Shown piece by piece: positions 2,618 through 53,384 of a DNA stretch of 64,000 nt. The translations under genes and the position numbers were made by a program. Below the pieces are notes generated by a model. The model searched no databases. It had not been told where the DNA came from and saw only the letters and a list, made by a program, of their open reading frames with translations. Origin of the DNA: Elmis aenea (lineage: Eukaryota > Arthropoda > Insecta > Coleoptera > Elmidae); assembly GCA_947652605.1 (NCBI GenBank), contig OX393581.1, positions 31,056,788-31,120,787 of the forward strand, given 5' to 3'. Each line of letters starts with the position of its first letter. The first letter of the stretch is position 1.

Positions 2618-5204
2618 AGTGACGAAACATTCGAAACTCTAAATCTTTTTCGTCTACTCGATAACAGTTAATAAACTACGAAAACCGCACGTTTCTATCT
2701 CTACCCGTTCTCGATATACGAAATTGTAGCCCTGAAGATGGGTCAACCTAATTAGAAACGTTATAAAATGTAACTTGGCTTAAAAGTAGCATCGCAATGG
2801 CGAAAACCGCACATTAGTATCTGCAACGGTTTTCCAGTTATAAATGAAGTTAATTTTAACCTGAAGATGGTCCAAAAAGTTCGAAACTTCGTATTAAAAA
2901 ATTCCTTTCGACAACACTTACATAGTAGTCAAAACCGCATGTCTGTAGCTCGAACCGTTTTGGAATTACGGTAAAGCCGAATCGTTGTCGATATTTGGCC
3001 GAAACAGGCTGTAAGCGATAGATACTAGCATGGTTTCGGCCTTCGGCCGAATCCATGCAGCCGGGAAAGTATGCGCTGGATACAAGCATGGTTTCGGCCT
3101 TCGGCCGAATCCATGCTGCCAGGAATGTATGCGCTGGATACTGGCATGGTTTCGGCCTACGGCCGAATCCATGCTGCAGGGAATGTATGCGCTGGATACT
3201 GGCATGGTTTCGGCCTTCGGCCGAATCCATGCTACCGGGAAAGTATGCGCTGGATACTGGCATGGTTTCGGCCTTCGGCCGAATCCATGCTACCGGGAAG
3301 GTATGCGCTGGATACTAGCATGGTTTCGGCCTTCGGCCGAATCCATGCTGCCGGGAATGTGCTAAATACTAGCATGGTTTCGGCCTTCGGCCGAATCCAT
3401 GCTGCCTGGAATGTATGCGCTTGATACTGGCATGGTTTCGGCCTTCGGCCGAATCCATGCTGCCGGAAATATGCGCTGGATACTGGCATGGTTTCGGCCT
3501 TCAGCCGAATCCATGCTGCCGGGAATGTGTACTGAATACTAGCATGGTTTCGGCCTTCGGCCGAATCCATGCTGCCGGGAAAGTATGCACTGGATACTGG
3601 CATGGTTTCGGCCTTCGGCCGAATCCATGCTGCCGGGAATGCGAGTGCTGGATACTGGCATGTTTCTGGCCTTCGGCCGAAAACATGCGCTGGATACAGC
3701 GAGTTTTCGGCCTTCGGCCGAAAACTTGCAGTCCCTTGCAGACGCTGGAAGCTAGCAAGGTTTCGGCCTTCGGCCGAAACCAGGCAGCCCCATTAAAGGT
3801 TATAGGCACATTTTTCTCGACAATTTCGACATTCGAGACCGATTTTCGGCGTCAAAACGTCATTAACAGTTTTCGGGATAAACTCGGTCCTATGCACCTA
3901 GACACGCTCTTTCCAACGGTCCGGTCCGTTTTTCGATGCCGAAACTTTTTGTCGGAAGCCGAAAAATTGGCTCGCCGAAAAATGCGATTTTCGATTTTTT
4001 TTTACCGGATTCGGATAGCCCTCGTTGAGCTGAAGCCGAAACGTCTTTTTTCCTCTTTTCAGAGCCGATCCGTTCGGCCAGGAACGTGTCGAAAAAAATG
4101 GGCCCCCTTTTTTTTCGATAGTCGATTTTGACACGAAGATGGTGTCGGATCTGGTCGGCGCCATTAAGGTATTTCTTAGTTGGGCCTAGCTCTTCCCGAA
4201 TCCGAAGGTTTTGAACCCAAGCGGTCTTCCGTTTCGGCTGTGCAATTTCCATTGGCCGATTTTCGACGTCGATTTTGACCCCTAAACCGGCGAAATACGA
4301 TCCTGGTAACATGTACACACCGGCCCTAACTTTTTACGCTCTATCGCGCGGAAACGTCAAAATTTCATTTTTAGCGCCGCATTTATGTTTTTAGAGGGGT
4401 CGAAATTTTCGGGTTCGACGTCGATTTTCGGGGTCGAAACGTCGCCCGGCGTCGGCGCTCCCGACGTCGTTTGTTAGGTATCGACCGACACTATCGAACA
4501 AAACAAACCGCATCGCGATATCTGCACGGGTCGACGAACGACACTGTTTTGAAAAAACACCAAACTTCGACGAAAATCGGCATTCCGGACCTGAAGACGG
4601 CGGCCGACCGAAACCCGGTCGTGCAGTCGGGAGGGTCCCATGGTTGGTCAAGTTTACCCGTCACAAAAGTTTCCGAAAGTAACACGTGGTCTTCGTCAGA
4701 TGGGAAAAACCCTCAAAAAATGTGGTTTTGGGACCCTCCCTCCGAATCCGTCCCTGTACGTTTTGGAGGGGTGGCCCAATGGAACTTTTTTGTCGCAGTC
4801 GGCTAAACTGTCACGTGACACAAACGGTTTTTCTCGATCTTTCCTCGTTTGCGAGATCTAGGTATAGGACGCTTACAAATTTTTTCACATTAACCCCTCC
4901 TGCTCCGTCCCTGGTGCCGTCACAAAGATTATTTCTCGGATCCCGGGTCAACTATCACGTACCTATCGAACGCCGCTCGCGGATTTCGGGTAACTATCGT
5001 GGATATTATTATTGTTATAATATGAACTATATTGTTTTATAGGGGCAACGTGGCGAACAAGTTGTATAAGATTGTTGTAGAATTATTGTGTGGGTAGAAA
5101 GAACGCTCAAAGAAAATAATTAAGACGTAAAAAGAACGCTCAAAGTAAAAAGAACGGTGCGCGTAGAAAGAACGCGGCGCGTAGAAATTGATGATGGTCA
5201 TAAA
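2618..5204 (+). repeat. Satellite unit 3 (long type, with 58-bp hairpin array)
   Basis: Long unit of about 2.59 kb. At 3024-3650 the hairpin block is expanded to 11 tandem copies of a 58-bp subrepeat, followed by three of the differently stemmed hairpins. The extra module lies at about 3785-4560 and holds T-runs and repeated GTCGATTTT/TCGACG words. The unit is paralleled by unit 7 at an offset of about 6119. Confidence 0.85.
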
Positions 5205-47999: not shown

Positions 48000-49912
48000 A
48001 TGGAGGTTGAAGAAATGGCATGTCTGTTGTATTATCACATTCGTCGTCGCAAAAAAGAAAAACATAAATATTGGGTCCATCCCATATTTTTAGAACGCCA
48101 TACTAAAGGCGCTTTCAATTTGCTGTATTATGATTTGCGCAAGCATGAAGACAAGTTTTTTAACTATTGTAGAATGAGCGTTCAATCATTTGATGAATTA
48201 CTTGGGCTGATTGCAGAACAAATAAGTGGACAAAATACTAATTTTCGCGAGAGTATACGTCCTGAAGAAAAACTCATCGTAACATTAAGGTAAGTGTTTA
48301 TTTTTTCTAAACATCACAGTTACCTGTTACACAACAAAAAATTAAATAATTAGAATTCATCCAAACAACATTATTGAAATAGGTCACAGTAATCAGATGA
48401 TTGAGAATTAAAACTTTCAATCGACTGATTTGAAGTTTCAGCAAATGGAGGACGAGTGTGGTATTGCTGACGTGAGGTGCTTGGATAATCATTATTCCAC
48501 TGTGAACCATGATGGGACTCATAACCGTCACGTCTGCAATAAGCTTGGTTAGGAGCTTGATATTTTTGAACCAATTTAATAAGGTCAATTTTAGCAGAGG
48601 GCTTTTGCGAATCTGGTATTTTTTTAAAGTCATCCAGCAAAGACAATAAAAACAATTTGTCCGAATCATCCTTGTCGCGATTCTCCCTGGCGCTAATGCT
48701 GGATTTTAAAATATTTACGATCTCCATGCCAATAGGATCTTCAGTTTTCCGTTTTTTTTAAAGTTGTGGACGATTCTGCGTTTCTTCTGTATCTTGAGGT
48801 GTTGCAGTTTCTACATTTTCACAGTCAATATTTGAGGATGTTGGAGCGGTTTCAGTTACGATTTTCAGAAAATGAAGTTGTTCAAAATATATATAAGTTG
48901 TTTTCTTTGTCGCAGAAGATCCACTTCGCACATTTTTTAACCGCCGTACTTCACGAGAATAGCTGTCTCTAAGATTTTTCCACTTTTTTTGTACTTGCAA
49001 ACCTACCATTAAAACAAAAAATATTTTTACAGGTATTTGGCCACTGGTTGCAGTTTCGGAGATTTTTGTCATAACTTTAGACTTGGGATGACTACCGTTA
49101 GGACAATAGTCAGACAAGTTTGTACTGCCATATGGACTGTACTAAAAGAATTAACACTACGAGAACCTACAAAGGAAGAATGGGAAAATATTGCGACGAT
49201 ATTCCAGCAGAGGGCACAATTCCCGAATTGTATAGGTGCCATTGACGGAAAACACATCAGAATCATTCAACCAACTCGAAGTGGATCGCTTTACTATAAT
49301 TATAAAAAATATTTCTCCATTGTGTTACTTGCCATTTGTGACGCAGATTACAAATTCATTTACATAGATGTTGGAGCGTATGGTAAATGTAGTGATTCAT
49401 CAATATTTAAAGATTCGACGATCTATCAAAAACTGATAAACAAGACATTGCAAGTACCAGATAAGTGTCCTATATCAACTACAGATCCTACACCGATGCC
49501 ACATGTTTTCGTCGGAGATGAAGCTTTTCCTCTTACAGAGAACATAATGCGGCCATACTCAGGCACTCATCTGTCCAGAAAGAAAAGTATTTAACTATAG
49601 ATTAAGCAGGGCTCGGAAATACATTGAATGTACATTTGGTATTTTGGCCAATAAGTGGCGTATTTTCCATCGTCCTCTTGATGTTGATATTGATTTTGCT
49701 ATTGATATAGTTAAAACGTGCTGCATCTTACACAATTTTGTTCGCATCAGAGATGGTGTTAAATGCGAAGATACGTTTACCTATTTTCCTACATCCGAGG
49801 AAGAATCACAGGAAAGAAACAGGAGTTCTCGTCTTACAACCTCATATCGAGATAATTTTGCAAGATATTTTGTAAACGAGGGTCAAGTTACATGGCAAAA
49901 TAATAGTTATTT
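48000..49912 (+). pseudogene. Harbinger transposase, two exons, frameshifted
   Basis: DDE nuclease of the PIF/Harbinger family (DDE_Tnp_4; HARBI1-like), which cuts and moves the element. Exon 1 (48000-48289, ATG chosen because MEVEEMACLLYY begins the conserved N-terminus) joins exon 2 (49033 on) through a GT..AG intron to give TLRYLATGCSF, a typical Harbinger block. Catalytic residues are visible: D in GAIDGKH (49244), D in VGDEAFPL (49517) and E in RKYIECTFGIL (49626). A +1 frameshift in an A-rich run at 49579-49590 lies between the second D and the E, so the product is cut short. The 3' end runs into the inserted recombinase element after ..VTWQNN, replacing the natural stop. Confidence 0.88.
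48290..49032 (+). other. Transposase intron containing the opposite-strand MADF-BESS exon
   Basis: Donor AAG|GTAAGTG at 48289/48290 and acceptor TTTTTACAG|GTATTTGG at 49032/49033. The splice restores the frame exactly. On the minus strand this same 743 bp contains the whole second exon of the accessory gene. Confidence 0.8.
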
Positions 49913-51759
49913 ATGTACCAAGGCCAAAAAGTGTAACTTTTTCGGCCGCGTCTGGTTTGCTGGCCGAGACGTAGTCGAGGCCAGCAAAAAGGCAAGGCCG
50001 AAAAAGTACGTTTTGGCCGAGGTGCATATTACATTTTTTGTGCGATCGAATCAAAAACAATTTAAATTTTTAGTATTTTTAAAAATATAGGTTAGAAACT
50101 ACGTGACATTCTGTCACTGACAGATGACGGCGTATGCTGTTAAGGGTGGACGTACTTGCTTAATTCTGTACATAATTAATTTAAAAAACCTTTTTTTGTT
50201 GATTAAGTAAATAAAAAGTACTACATCATAAACAATTTATTTATTAATGGTGTAATTGATTGTGATAGTACATTTATTACAGTTATTCAAATTTACACCT
50301 GAGGCAGTGTCTTGTACATTTTTATTACATATAGAAGTGTTCGCCACAGCGGAAGTGAAGTTTGGAGTTGTAGCATTGATATTAAAATTCTTTTCTTTTA
50401 AAATCTTGTTAGCGATTTCAACTTTGTTGGTTATAGAGTCTTCAACATAACCTTCAGCGACGGTCGAACTCTTCCAACCACCGTGTCGCTTTAGAGTTAG
50501 GATATCACCTCCAGCATCAGCTAATAATGATGCCGATGTGCGGCGAAAACAGTGGCCGGTATATTCATTTGAATTAGGTAATTGTAAATATTTCGCAATT
50601 ACACTAGGCATTTTACCAAAAGTGTGTATTCCAACCACTTGCTTATTGCATTTTCCATTTTGGTATTTCAAGAAAAATGTTTTATGAGTGACGTTAGGTC
50701 TCAATAATGTATATTTTCGATATATTTCTAGCGCACTTACTCCATCGCAAATTTCGTCGGTTACAGTAAACATTCTTGATTTACTTGTTTTTGAATCGGG
50801 TATTTTAATTACAAGGATATCATTATTATCTTTTATATTCTCAATAGAAAGATTACGTAGCTCTTCTCGGCGGCATGCACCAGCAATAGCAAATATTAAA
50901 CATACCTAGAAAATATAAAGCTTTGAATAAAATCGAGTAATTATATCTTCACTTACTTTGTTCATTAAATAGGTTTCATCAGGTGCATTAAGCAAAAACC
51001 TATTTATCTCGTCTCTTACAAATACTTTTGATTTTTTGGCTTTGTAACCCACCTTTTGTTTTTTCAAAAATGCAATGAGTTTACAATATTTGCTTATATT
51101 TACATCATTTTTCGCTATTAAAGTTGCTTTTAACATTGAAAATGTTGACCATAATGTTGAACATTTACATTGTTTCGCTTTTTGAGAAAAATAAGCAAGC
51201 AGGACGTTTTCACTATATTTACTTATTTTTTTATTATTGCACCATTCCATAAATAAATTGTATTGTTTTTCATATAATGTTGCAGATTTGTTCGGCAGAA
51301 GATTTAATTTTACTGCCTCTGCTTCTTCATGAACGTCAGGTGGTGTATTCATGGGTGATGTATCACTCTCTTCGTCACTTCATTGGTCCATCTTTTAATT
51401 ATAAATTAACTATAAATAATTATAAAATTATGTACTTGAACGTTGAACTTTATCTATACGTTGAACTCAGTATTAACATTAACACCAAAATGTTTGGTTA
51501 TAAACTTGACAGTTACCAACTTAAACACCCTACATAGCGGGAACTCGGAGAAATTAGATCAGCACGCACATTAGTACTTAAATGCAAATTTACTTTTTCG
51601 TACGCTGTAGTTACTTTATCGGACGTTGCTAAGGGCAACGGCCGTAAAAGTAACTTTATCGGACGTTGCTAAGGATAACGCCGGTAATGCAGTACTTTAC
51701 GGTTGCTAACGCGTCCGTAAAACAGCTGTTTCTAGTACGATCGCACAAAAATATGTTTA
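49902..51759. mobile_element. Tyrosine recombinase transposon, Crypton-like (level 4)
   Basis: About 1.86 kb inserted at the 3' end of the Harbinger transposase and inside the intron of the MADF gene. Boundaries are set by the points where similarity to the gene-less copy at 40739-41095 begins and ends, so they are approximate to a few bases. It has a left GGCCAAAAAGT..TTTTTCGGCC region, TTTTTGTGCGATCG at about 50034-50048, the recombinase gene on the minus strand, GTTGCTAAGG-containing repeats at 51620-51690, and CGATCGCACAAAAA near 51737-51751. No clear target duplication was found. Confidence 0.85.
50237..51352 (-). CDS. Tyrosine recombinase (Crypton-type), apparently intact
   Basis: Site-specific recombinase of the phage-integrase fold, expected to cut and join DNA through a 3'-phosphotyrosine and so move its element. 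Exon 1 is 51352-50957 and exon 2 is 50905-50237, with a 51-bp GTAAGT..TAG intron. Spliced length is 354 residues, no internal stop. The full catalytic set is readable: R144 (GACRREEL), K in PDSKTSKSR (171 or 174), H250-x-x-R253 (HCFRRTSASLLADAG), the H/W position as W276 (with H273 nearby) and Y285 (GGWKSSTVAEGY). The N-terminal 130 residues match a core-binding (SAM-like) domain in position and composition. No GCR1 or zinc-finger domain is seen. The start ATG is preceded by an acidic DEESDTSP-coding stretch with no earlier in-frame ATG noticed. The family label is from motif memory; KolobokY or another YR group remains possible. Confidence 0.85.
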
Positions 51760-52595
51760 ATATATGAATTTACTAACCGAATTGTTTCTTTTCTTCCAAT
51801 AATATTTCTTCTCCTCCAAGTTTATCCACGATTTCCTCCCATAACTTTTTTCTAACATTTTTATCACTGTATTCACCTAAAGTGATATTCCATATCGGAG
51901 GTCGCTGCTCCACCTCTATAATAAGTGCCTCTATATCAAAATATTTGTTATCCATCACGTTGGACTCACAGAACATACACAAGCGTTATATGTTTGACAA
52001 GTCGCGCGCGACTGACAGTTGCAGTGGGTTATGCTCCATATAAAAACGTGTAATCTAAAGTCGCGCGCGACAATCGAGTCGCGGCGGAATCGCTATTCAA
52101 AATCCTGTCGCGCGCTGCAAGCGAGTCGCGTCGCGTCAGTGGGCGTTGCGCCATATAAATACATAGAAAATTAAGCCGCGCGCGACTCAACGCGACCTGT
52201 CGCGCGCGACAGGTCGCGCCAGTGGGTTATGGCCCTAAAAGTGCTGCCCCAAAAAAAGTGCCGCCCGGGGCGGACGCTACGCTACTGTATGCAATCAAAA
52301 GTTCCGTGCATCGCTACAGTTGGTATTTTATATGAAGATATAGTAATGAACAAATTATTGTATCGATATAAGAAGAGTTGTTATTTTCTGGTATTTTTAA
52401 TTTTTTGATATTTAAATAACATGTAGTTGTAGATAATTAGTATACTAATTAAAAATAAATAAAACTTTTCGAAAAAGTTTCAAATTAAAAAAAAAATTAT
52501 TCATAGAATTCTTTATGGTACCGTCGAAAATCTCTCGCGTGCCAAGTTTGGCACGCGTGCCACCTATTTGCCATCCCTGAAATAGAGGATCCAAC

Positions 52596-52721: not shown

Positions 52722-52729
52722 GTCAAGAT

Positions 52730-53376
52730 CAGTGATGTGAGTGTGTCATATGACCGCGTCATGACAGTTTGTCATGACGGTCATGACGTCACGTCACAAT
52801 GATTTTAAATGACCGTGACCATTCTAACCTCCAAAATTCAAAATGACAGTTTTTCTAACATCCAAAAATGACAGTTTTAAGTTTACATGGTGGTTGTCAC
52901 TTGATTTGTGTTAATCTTAATTGCAATATCGATATTAAAACTATAAAAACCACTATATAAAGTATTCTGAAAGTTGGTAAACACGTTATCCTGCAAGTTC
53001 GCAGCAAAAGGTAGCTACTACTTATGGTTGCCAATTTTGTAGAAAGAGATACGGATTTCATGCCACTAGAATGGCAGAACATTTAATTACAACATGCAAG
53101 AACTGCAAATAAAAGTTTTATTTAAAAAAATTAGCTCTCAGCATAAGTAGTCCAAAATCACCTTCAACTCCCTCGACTTCTAGAGCCTTCTCTGAAGGAA
53201 TACAATACCCAGATAGAGATACTGATACTAATAATTTTGCTTTTTATTTATTATTCCTATTACATATATATTAATTTTATACCATTGTTATAAAAATAAT
53301 CATAAATGACGGTCATATGACCGGTCATGACGGTCATGACGTCACAATCATAAATGACCGTCATTTCACATCACTG
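52730..53376. mobile_element. hAT element, internally deleted
   Basis: 647 bp with ends CAGTGATGTGAGTGTG and TTTCACATCACTG and a perfect 8-bp duplication GTCAAGAT (52722-52729 and 53377-53384). TGACCGTCATGAC-type words are repeated inside both ends. It retains a zinc-finger piece of the lost transposase. Confidence 0.88.
53008..53112 (+). pseudogene. BED zinc-finger remnant of the hAT transposase
   Basis: The plus strand reads GCQFCRKRYGFHATRMAEHL then ITTCKNCK and a stop: C-x2-C ... H ... MAEHL-x-x-x-C, the BED-finger pattern found at the N-terminus of hAT transposases. The stop at 53110 ends it before any catalytic domain. Confidence 0.6.
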
Positions 53377-53384
53377 GTCAAGAT

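Follow-up and report, generated by a model that had tools for sequence, protein, structure and literature searches.

How does a DNA transposon whose only gene encodes a tyrosine recombinase (YR) recognise its ends, choose its targets and multiply in an animal genome? The question is raised by a 64,000-nucleotide stretch of the genome of the beetle Elmis aenea (GCA_947652605.1, contig OX393581.1, positions 31,056,788 to 31,120,787 of the forward strand; hereafter the window, with positions counted from its first letter), in which a YR transposon lies within a Harbinger element. For animal Cryptons, end recognition, target choice and amplification are left unsettled in the relevant parts of PMC3212892 and PMC8969392, which, like the other papers cited below, are cited for part of their contents. 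The junctions, empty sites and relatives of the window element point to an autonomous Crypton-like DNA transposon that may integrate one of its strands, with a left-end hairpin and an inverted copy of its own joined ends (right end plus left end; hereafter J) as a built-in splint, a reading based on sequence comparison that we adopt tentatively, with a little less than even confidence. The hairpin, the inverted junction copy, a target rule and thousands of short copies all go beyond a preliminary description of this locus, which had recognised the recombinase gene and its position inside the Harbinger element.

The element, its gene and its copies

The whole transposon occupies 49904..51750 and is written here on the plus strand with the left end TAGTTATTTATG as 5', on the basis of 39 left junctions, 38 right junctions and empty sites. 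The open reading frames flanking it match DDE_Tnp_4 (1.8e-19) and MADF (1.1e-6), the left part of the Harbinger (49037..49901, plus strand) carrying DDE_Tnp_4 read in two frames and the right part (51760..52244, no strand assigned) extending as far as other copies match, with a MADF fragment on the minus strand at 51776-51982. The window site is present and uninterrupted in eight other Harbinger copies, which together with these flanks bears out the nested position proposed in the preliminary description. The empty site reads GGCAAAATAA^ATATGTTTAATATATG, the left junction GGCAAAATAA^TAGTTATTTATG and the right junction CGATCGCACAAAA^ATATGTTTAATATATG (^ marking the point of joining); because the eight empty copies equal the joined flanks at the junction, insertion neither adds nor removes a base. 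The counterpart in L021 is exact around the junction and 78% identical overall, those in L009, L022 and L036 are diverged (66–76%), and the alignments of L007, L018 and L038 are too poor to count. The interval originally given, 49902..51759, does contain the element, but the specific sequence is confined to 49904-51750: the last nine bases belong to the target, and the AA at 49902-49903 is common to target and element.

The gene lies on the minus strand and, from translation and alignment, consists of exon 1 (50957..51352; 132 codons, ATG at 51352), a 51 bp intron (50906..50956, GTAAGT..TTCTAG) and exon 2 (50237..50905), which holds the catalytic domain and the stop. It is intact as first described: the intron restores the frame, the spliced product of 354 amino acids has no internal stops, and R144, K171/K174, H250, R253, W276 and Y285 are found at the positions claimed for them, so placed as to give the R..K..H-x-x-R..H/W..Y signature of tyrosine recombinases. 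Exon 2 matches Pfam Phage_integrase at 3e-11. In an alignment of window exon 2 with 34 relatives picked from the best 120 protein matches listed (of 1013 at E<=0.001), 34 of the 35 sequences match Phage_integrase and the catalytic columns are invariant or at least 90% conserved. The nearest solved structures in PDB by profile are XerA (8.4e-5), Cre (0.0025) and IntI4 (0.039). Among the matches listed, the best named proteins come from fireflies, longhorn beetles and darkling beetles, and the named YR relatives are annotated as uncharacterized, hypothetical, unnamed or Tyr recombinase domain-containing, some JGI ones as 'integrase'; relatives from viral_contigs with DNA context amounted to just two loci, at 27% identity. 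The intron falls at the identical codon boundary in all six paralogous loci fetched. As a separate observation, the closest relative among the matches listed (P0003, a metagenome protein of 467 amino acids, 66% identity) runs on into a MADF domain; MADF also adjoins the window element, within the Harbinger, and the arrangement in P0003 may be either a chance neighbour or a fusion.

Close copies number at least 40 in the 516 Mb genome, the DNA search having scored 40 of its 2539 first-look candidates, and their best identities are 95 to 100%. Both ends are present in 38 of them, of which 22, including the window copy, have an intact frame, and the median pairwise divergence of the 38 is 0.8% over ungapped columns; on these two figures the element appears to be young and to have been active recently. 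The flanks are unrelated among the 39 left and 38 right ends that could be read from the 40 fetched copies (the right flank of L011 is masked). Its earlier nomination as a live or recently live mobile element is thus upheld by copy number, unrelated flanks, empty sites, intact frames and low divergence. The further copies and empty sites that the preliminary description had proposed to look for were both found. The copies share the same ends and form part of no larger element, and the gene has no single fixed locus; at least 40 copies with unrelated flanks is not the pattern of a domesticated host gene, which would be single-copy at a conserved locus.

Short derivatives are far more numerous. 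Genome-wide there are 2028+2031 matches to 24 bases of the left end, with up to 3 mismatches allowed, and 1504+1572 to 26 bases of the right end, compared to 0 for the backward control; about 3,000 is the safer estimate of copies, because some left-end matches belong to a non-autonomous family described below. These 3,000–4,000 or so occurrences are largely short derivatives, and the internally deleted elements fetched include ones of 342, 380 and 657 bp. A tblastn search with exon 2 gave 130 matches, including further YR families near 45–56% identity. Six families of this one genome were compared for hairpin and J: F1 (the window family), the YR families F2 (L075, L077), F4 (L079, L080), F5 (L078) and F6 (L076), whose proteins are 41–54% identical to that of the window, and the non-autonomous F3. 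From end to end F2, F5 and F6 measure 1.64–1.71 kb, with the YR the sole gene seen (the ends of F5 and F6 come from one copy each), and in F4 the gene is reversed relative to the ends. F3 (L067, L069, L070, L086, L095) shares the first 22 bases of its left end with F1 and has its own interior and its own right end, CGATTGCAGAAAA.

Junctions and target sites

The ends are sharply defined, the left starting with AATAGTTATTT (at most one change) in 39 of 40 copies and the right being CGATCGCACAAAA (51738..51750, plus strand; placed by junctions and empty sites) or nearly so in 39 of 40. A target-site duplication (TSD) was considered and rejected: 51 flank pairs score 1.63 against a null of 1.61, and 216 of 500 shuffles score as high. 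The right flank instead follows a rule. Counting the first base right of the crossover as +1, nine clean flank bases were available for 53 of 58 right junctions (38 autonomous, 13 non-autonomous, 2 F2; L011, L084, L092, L093 and L100 were dropped), with A at +1 in 51, T at +8 in 52 and A or T at +9 in 52. TT occupies +7/+8 in 45 of the 53, compared to a 14% TT background further out. The 38 autonomous junctions alone give A at +1 in 38, T at +8 in 38, A or T at +9 in 37 and TT in 32. On the other side of the crossover the AA is almost fixed (71 and 70 of 71), although 30 of those 71 ends came from a genome-wide pattern that itself contains AA. The target is therefore about AA^A-N5-T-(T/W), two AT half-sites around a 6 bp spacer, the usual geometry of YR sites, for which spacers of 6–8 bp are given in PMC3212892. 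In the window the target side of the right junction (51751..51759, plus strand) consists of the target spacer ATATGT followed by TTA.

The two junctions differ in whose spacer they carry. Left ends were scanned from the interior word TATGTACCAAGGCCAAAA, without using the spacer, across L001-L040, L103 and L104, which recovered 45 left ends and two further hits that proved to be J. The sequence TAGTTATT is retained within two changes in 43 of the 45, and with it the element spacer TAGTTA (49904..49909, plus strand, in the window), while the right spacers comprise 42 different hexamers among 57, the lone TAGTTA being that of the tandem copy L090. The left junction thus nearly always keeps the spacer of the element, and the right junction nearly always that of the target.

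Element ends themselves serve as insertion sites. F1 elements have entered F1 right ends precisely at their crossover, twice in L031 and once in L090, an F4-type element (L079:910-2843) received an F1 element exactly at the crossover of its right end, and in L027 an F1 element lies at the crossover of an F2-like J (81–83% over 75 bp). Since F1 insertions are found at both, the right end and J can each act as a recombination partner at the predicted base. L031 also holds tandem partial copies in which a right end is joined to a left end with the exact junction predicted for a circle.

The left-end hairpin and the inverted copy of the joined ends

Folded as single-stranded DNA, the first 130 nt of F1 give z = -10.4, the hairpin occupying 49912..50028 of the window (plus strand) with the apex GGCC-GA-GAC-GTA-GTC-GA-GGCC. 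The left ends of all six families fold with z from -5.2 to -11.3, by differing stems, compared to 0.1 and 0.9 for two interior controls. The top strand is the more stable in five of the six families (F5 is a tie) and in 27 of 30 fetched copies. An apex of the form GA-stem-GNA-stem-GA stands 65–67 nt from the end in F1, F2, F3 (L069) and F4, on the top strand only, and occurs in 0–3 of 2000 shuffles; F5 and F6 also show GA/GA internal loops by eye. Because the hairpin keeps its strand in F4 while the gene is reversed, it appears to serve the ends and not the mRNA. At the other extremity, right subterminal palindromes (51610..51740, plus strand) reach z = -4.9. In two left ends, L083 and L067, the hairpin loop is inverted between near-perfect arms, as if flipped by fold-back template switching or by recombination between the left end and J.

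J occupies 50018..50048 on the minus strand. Immediately interior to the F1 hairpin the right end reappears in reverse complement as TTTTTTGTGCGATCG, which together with the second hairpin arm forms J; the bases TTTTGTGCGATCG at 50036-50048 match that reverse complement exactly. Within a family, J and right end agree exactly for F1, F2 and F4 (in F4 the right end is from L079 and J from L080) and with two changes for F3 (L067), in each case better than J agrees with foreign right ends or than any foreign J agrees with that right end; shuffled right ends do as well in 0, 1, 0 and 18 of 5000 for F1, F2, F4 and F3, respectively. From J the right end of F3 was predicted to be CGATTGCAGAAAA, which was later found exactly in L095, a deleted F3 copy that has lost J; a one-change form in L067, in sequence obtained before the prediction, was recognised afterwards. 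Of the autonomous copies, 38 of 39 carry J, as do three of five F3 copies. Among the non-autonomous F1 copies fetched it is present in 23 of 25, including every one of the 17 for which the fetched stretch reached the right end.

Integration and relationship to known systems

The sequences show a conservative crossover between the right-end/left-end junction CGATCGCACAAAA-TAGTTA-TTTATGTACC, for which the predicted circle sequence is CGATCGCACAAAATAGTTATTTATG, and a loosely defined genomic site AA^AN5^T(T)W (here with both spacer edges marked). It lies at the left edge of the 6 bp spacer, so leaving the element spacer at the left junction and the target spacer at the right. We propose that only the top strand is exchanged. 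A single top strand, probably circular, would fold such that J pairs with both ends and holds them side by side, J substituting for the missing bottom strand and so offering the recombinase a site like a double-stranded one; once the YR had joined this strand to the target, the host would supply the second one by replication or repair, as in the integron attC x attI reaction. In integrons, heterologous spacers prevent the second strand exchange, and recombination at attC involves one strand, with resolution by replication (PMC2727003, in part). The junctions described here are what one-strand exchange with replicative resolution would leave, which makes them compatible with it but not proof of it. 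The stronger proposition, that this is a eukaryotic counterpart of attC in which an animal YR integrates a folded single strand with an inverted copy of the joined ends as splint, we regard as doubtful. To our knowledge, single-strand recombination by a YR is known from bacterial integrons and some phages, not from animals.

A number of observations weigh against single-strand integration. The circle and the single-stranded intermediate are steps that we infer from sequence, and identical junctions would result if a double-strand reaction were repaired directionally. J and right end differ at four of 13 positions in F5 and at five in F6, where 520 and 2709 of 5000 shuffled right ends, respectively, do as well, and by eye no compensatory change links J and right end in the young sub-families: L089 and L090 have the right end CGATCACAC, for which J is unchanged. 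Folding energy differs little between the strands (by 0 to 6.4 kcal/mol); of two right-end palindromes serving as controls, one likewise favours the top strand, by 1.8, and the other shows a difference of 0. Nor is the apex motif indispensable: among 30 fetched left ends it is on the top strand in 12, on the bottom in two (L067, L083) and absent from 16, including the short L071, L073, L089-L091 and L096; that GNA loops and tandem GA pairs are especially stable is general background, not a result of this comparison. L104, outside the 53 junctions counted above, has no T at +8. Finally, two of the 45 left ends (L034 and a neighbouring element in L040) are without the first ten bases, both beginning at TATGTA, the base of the hairpin stem. 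They may reflect end trimming at the hairpin, a small deletion or another type of junction; for L034, deletion or trimming is likelier than a swapped spacer because its right junction is of the normal type.

A possible alternative is integration of a double-stranded circle, as proposed for Cryptons and Tn916-like elements, with the spacer difference stopping the second exchange and repair finishing the reaction, and with hairpin and J as accessory YR-binding sites or cruciforms and no splint. The joined-end sequence does exist in tandem copies (L031, L090), the half-sites by inspection form a rough inverted repeat around the 6 bp spacer, and J and right ends have received insertions while chromosomal and double-stranded (L027, L079). 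However, this alternative leaves unexplained why J copies its own right end in four of six families, the strand asymmetry of the hairpin and its conserved mismatches. Element and target spacers differ, and a two-strand exchange would therefore leave mismatched spacers at both junctions, resolvable either way, so that random repair predicts mixed junction types; a single type accounts for 43 of the 45 left ends. It is improbable, in our judgement, that J and the palindromes are by-products with no role in movement, left by an ancient self-insertion near the left end and fold-back gene conversion. Insertion of one element into the end of another does occur (L031, L090, L079, L027), and the inverted loops and near-perfect arms of L083 and L067 are what fold-back template switching gives, but the hairpin recurs in five YR families and one non-autonomous family, and J persists in 17 of 17 short copies with a right end despite the loss of most of their interior. 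Less probable still is a DIRS-like retrotransposition in which J circularises a linear cDNA made by the reverse transcriptase (RT) of another element. J does fit the layout described in PMC3266345 (in part), being inverse-complementary to both ends, with no TSD and an A-rich junction. The 1.85 kb element has no RT, however, and F2, F5 and F6, at the lengths given above, show only the YR gene; moreover, the intron is retained in all 38 copies having both ends, and spliced mRNA was therefore not the template.

A true DIRS element with its own RT is rejected for the window, given its length of 1.85 kb, its single YR gene, the absence of RT and RNase H, and the retained intron. The window family nevertheless has the DIRS arrangement of an internal region inverse-complementary to both ends, without TSD, and in four of the six families this region matches the right end. 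It shares with the DIRS-1-like elements of PMC3266345, as far as that account is used here, an internal inverted copy of the joined ends (the internal complementary region, ICR, or circular junction), a YR, the lack of TSD and a short A-rich crossover, and differs in having no RT or RNase H, in retaining an intron, in carrying J beside the left end within the hairpin, and in ends that share no inverted repeat beyond their pairing with J. With integron cassettes and IntI (PMC2727003, same part) it shares the enzyme family and a folded single-strand site favouring one strand, and one-strand exchange at one spacer edge would fit its junctions; it differs in that it is a self-contained transposon of a eukaryote, encodes its own recombinase and accepts loosely defined AT-rich targets, and in that its single-strand use is proposed from sequence.

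The earlier label of 'Crypton-type' is plausible on structure. The element has one YR gene and no RT or DDE gene, the DDE gene nearby being that of the interrupted Harbinger. It does not display the terminal direct repeats of 4–6 bp typical of fungal Cryptons, no flank repeat exceeding the null in 51 pairs, and animal Cryptons are likewise reported without them in the part of PMC3212892 cited here. As in the CryptonI and CryptonA families of that paper (Kojima and Jurka 2011), the YR is the sole protein and has no C-terminal domain (no further domain scores above the Pfam cut-off), the host is an insect, terminal repeats are lacking and non-autonomous derivatives are abundant. A point of difference is the CryptonA-derived DUF3504 (PF12012), which was matched by none of the 35 aligned sequences at E<=0.1. 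Placement with the animal Cryptons of Kojima and Jurka is contradicted by none of the findings. The same part of PMC3212892 reports that 50 copies of a CryptonI family lack terminal repeats and counts over 2,700 autonomous and non-autonomous Crypton copies in medaka; the only mark named for Cryptons in a curation guide is a short direct repeat (PMC8969392, in part). Terminal hairpin, inverted junction copy, target motif and empty sites, which go unreported for animal Cryptons in the cited part of PMC3212892, are resolved in the window element. Among the titles and abstract openings listed by searches of open-licence literature, we found no report of an inverted junction copy in an RT-less YR transposon, nor of hairpins or an inverted junction copy in Cryptons.

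If correct, the single-strand layout would link Cryptons to DIRS elements, with the same ICR logic but no reverse transcriptase, and would offer a way for a single family to have risen to thousands of copies. A copy of the circle junction in an RT-less element would also be relevant to how the DIRS ICR arose. The recent burst, intact genes, exact ends, empty sites and target rule make the mechanism testable with natural mini-elements of about 342 bp.

An origin as a Helitron or as cargo of the Harbinger is ruled out, the enzyme being a YR and eight empty Harbinger copies being present. Elements of the IS200/IS605 group and Helitrons likewise have subterminal hairpins and insert without TSD at a short motif, but they use HUH nucleases, unlike the phage-integrase-family enzyme of the window element. 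The window also carries a second short transposon (52730-53376), presumably hAT-like, with 11 bp inverted ends (CAGTGATGTGA/TCACATCACTG) and flanked by an 8 bp duplication, GTCAAGAT, at 52722-52729 and 53377-53384.

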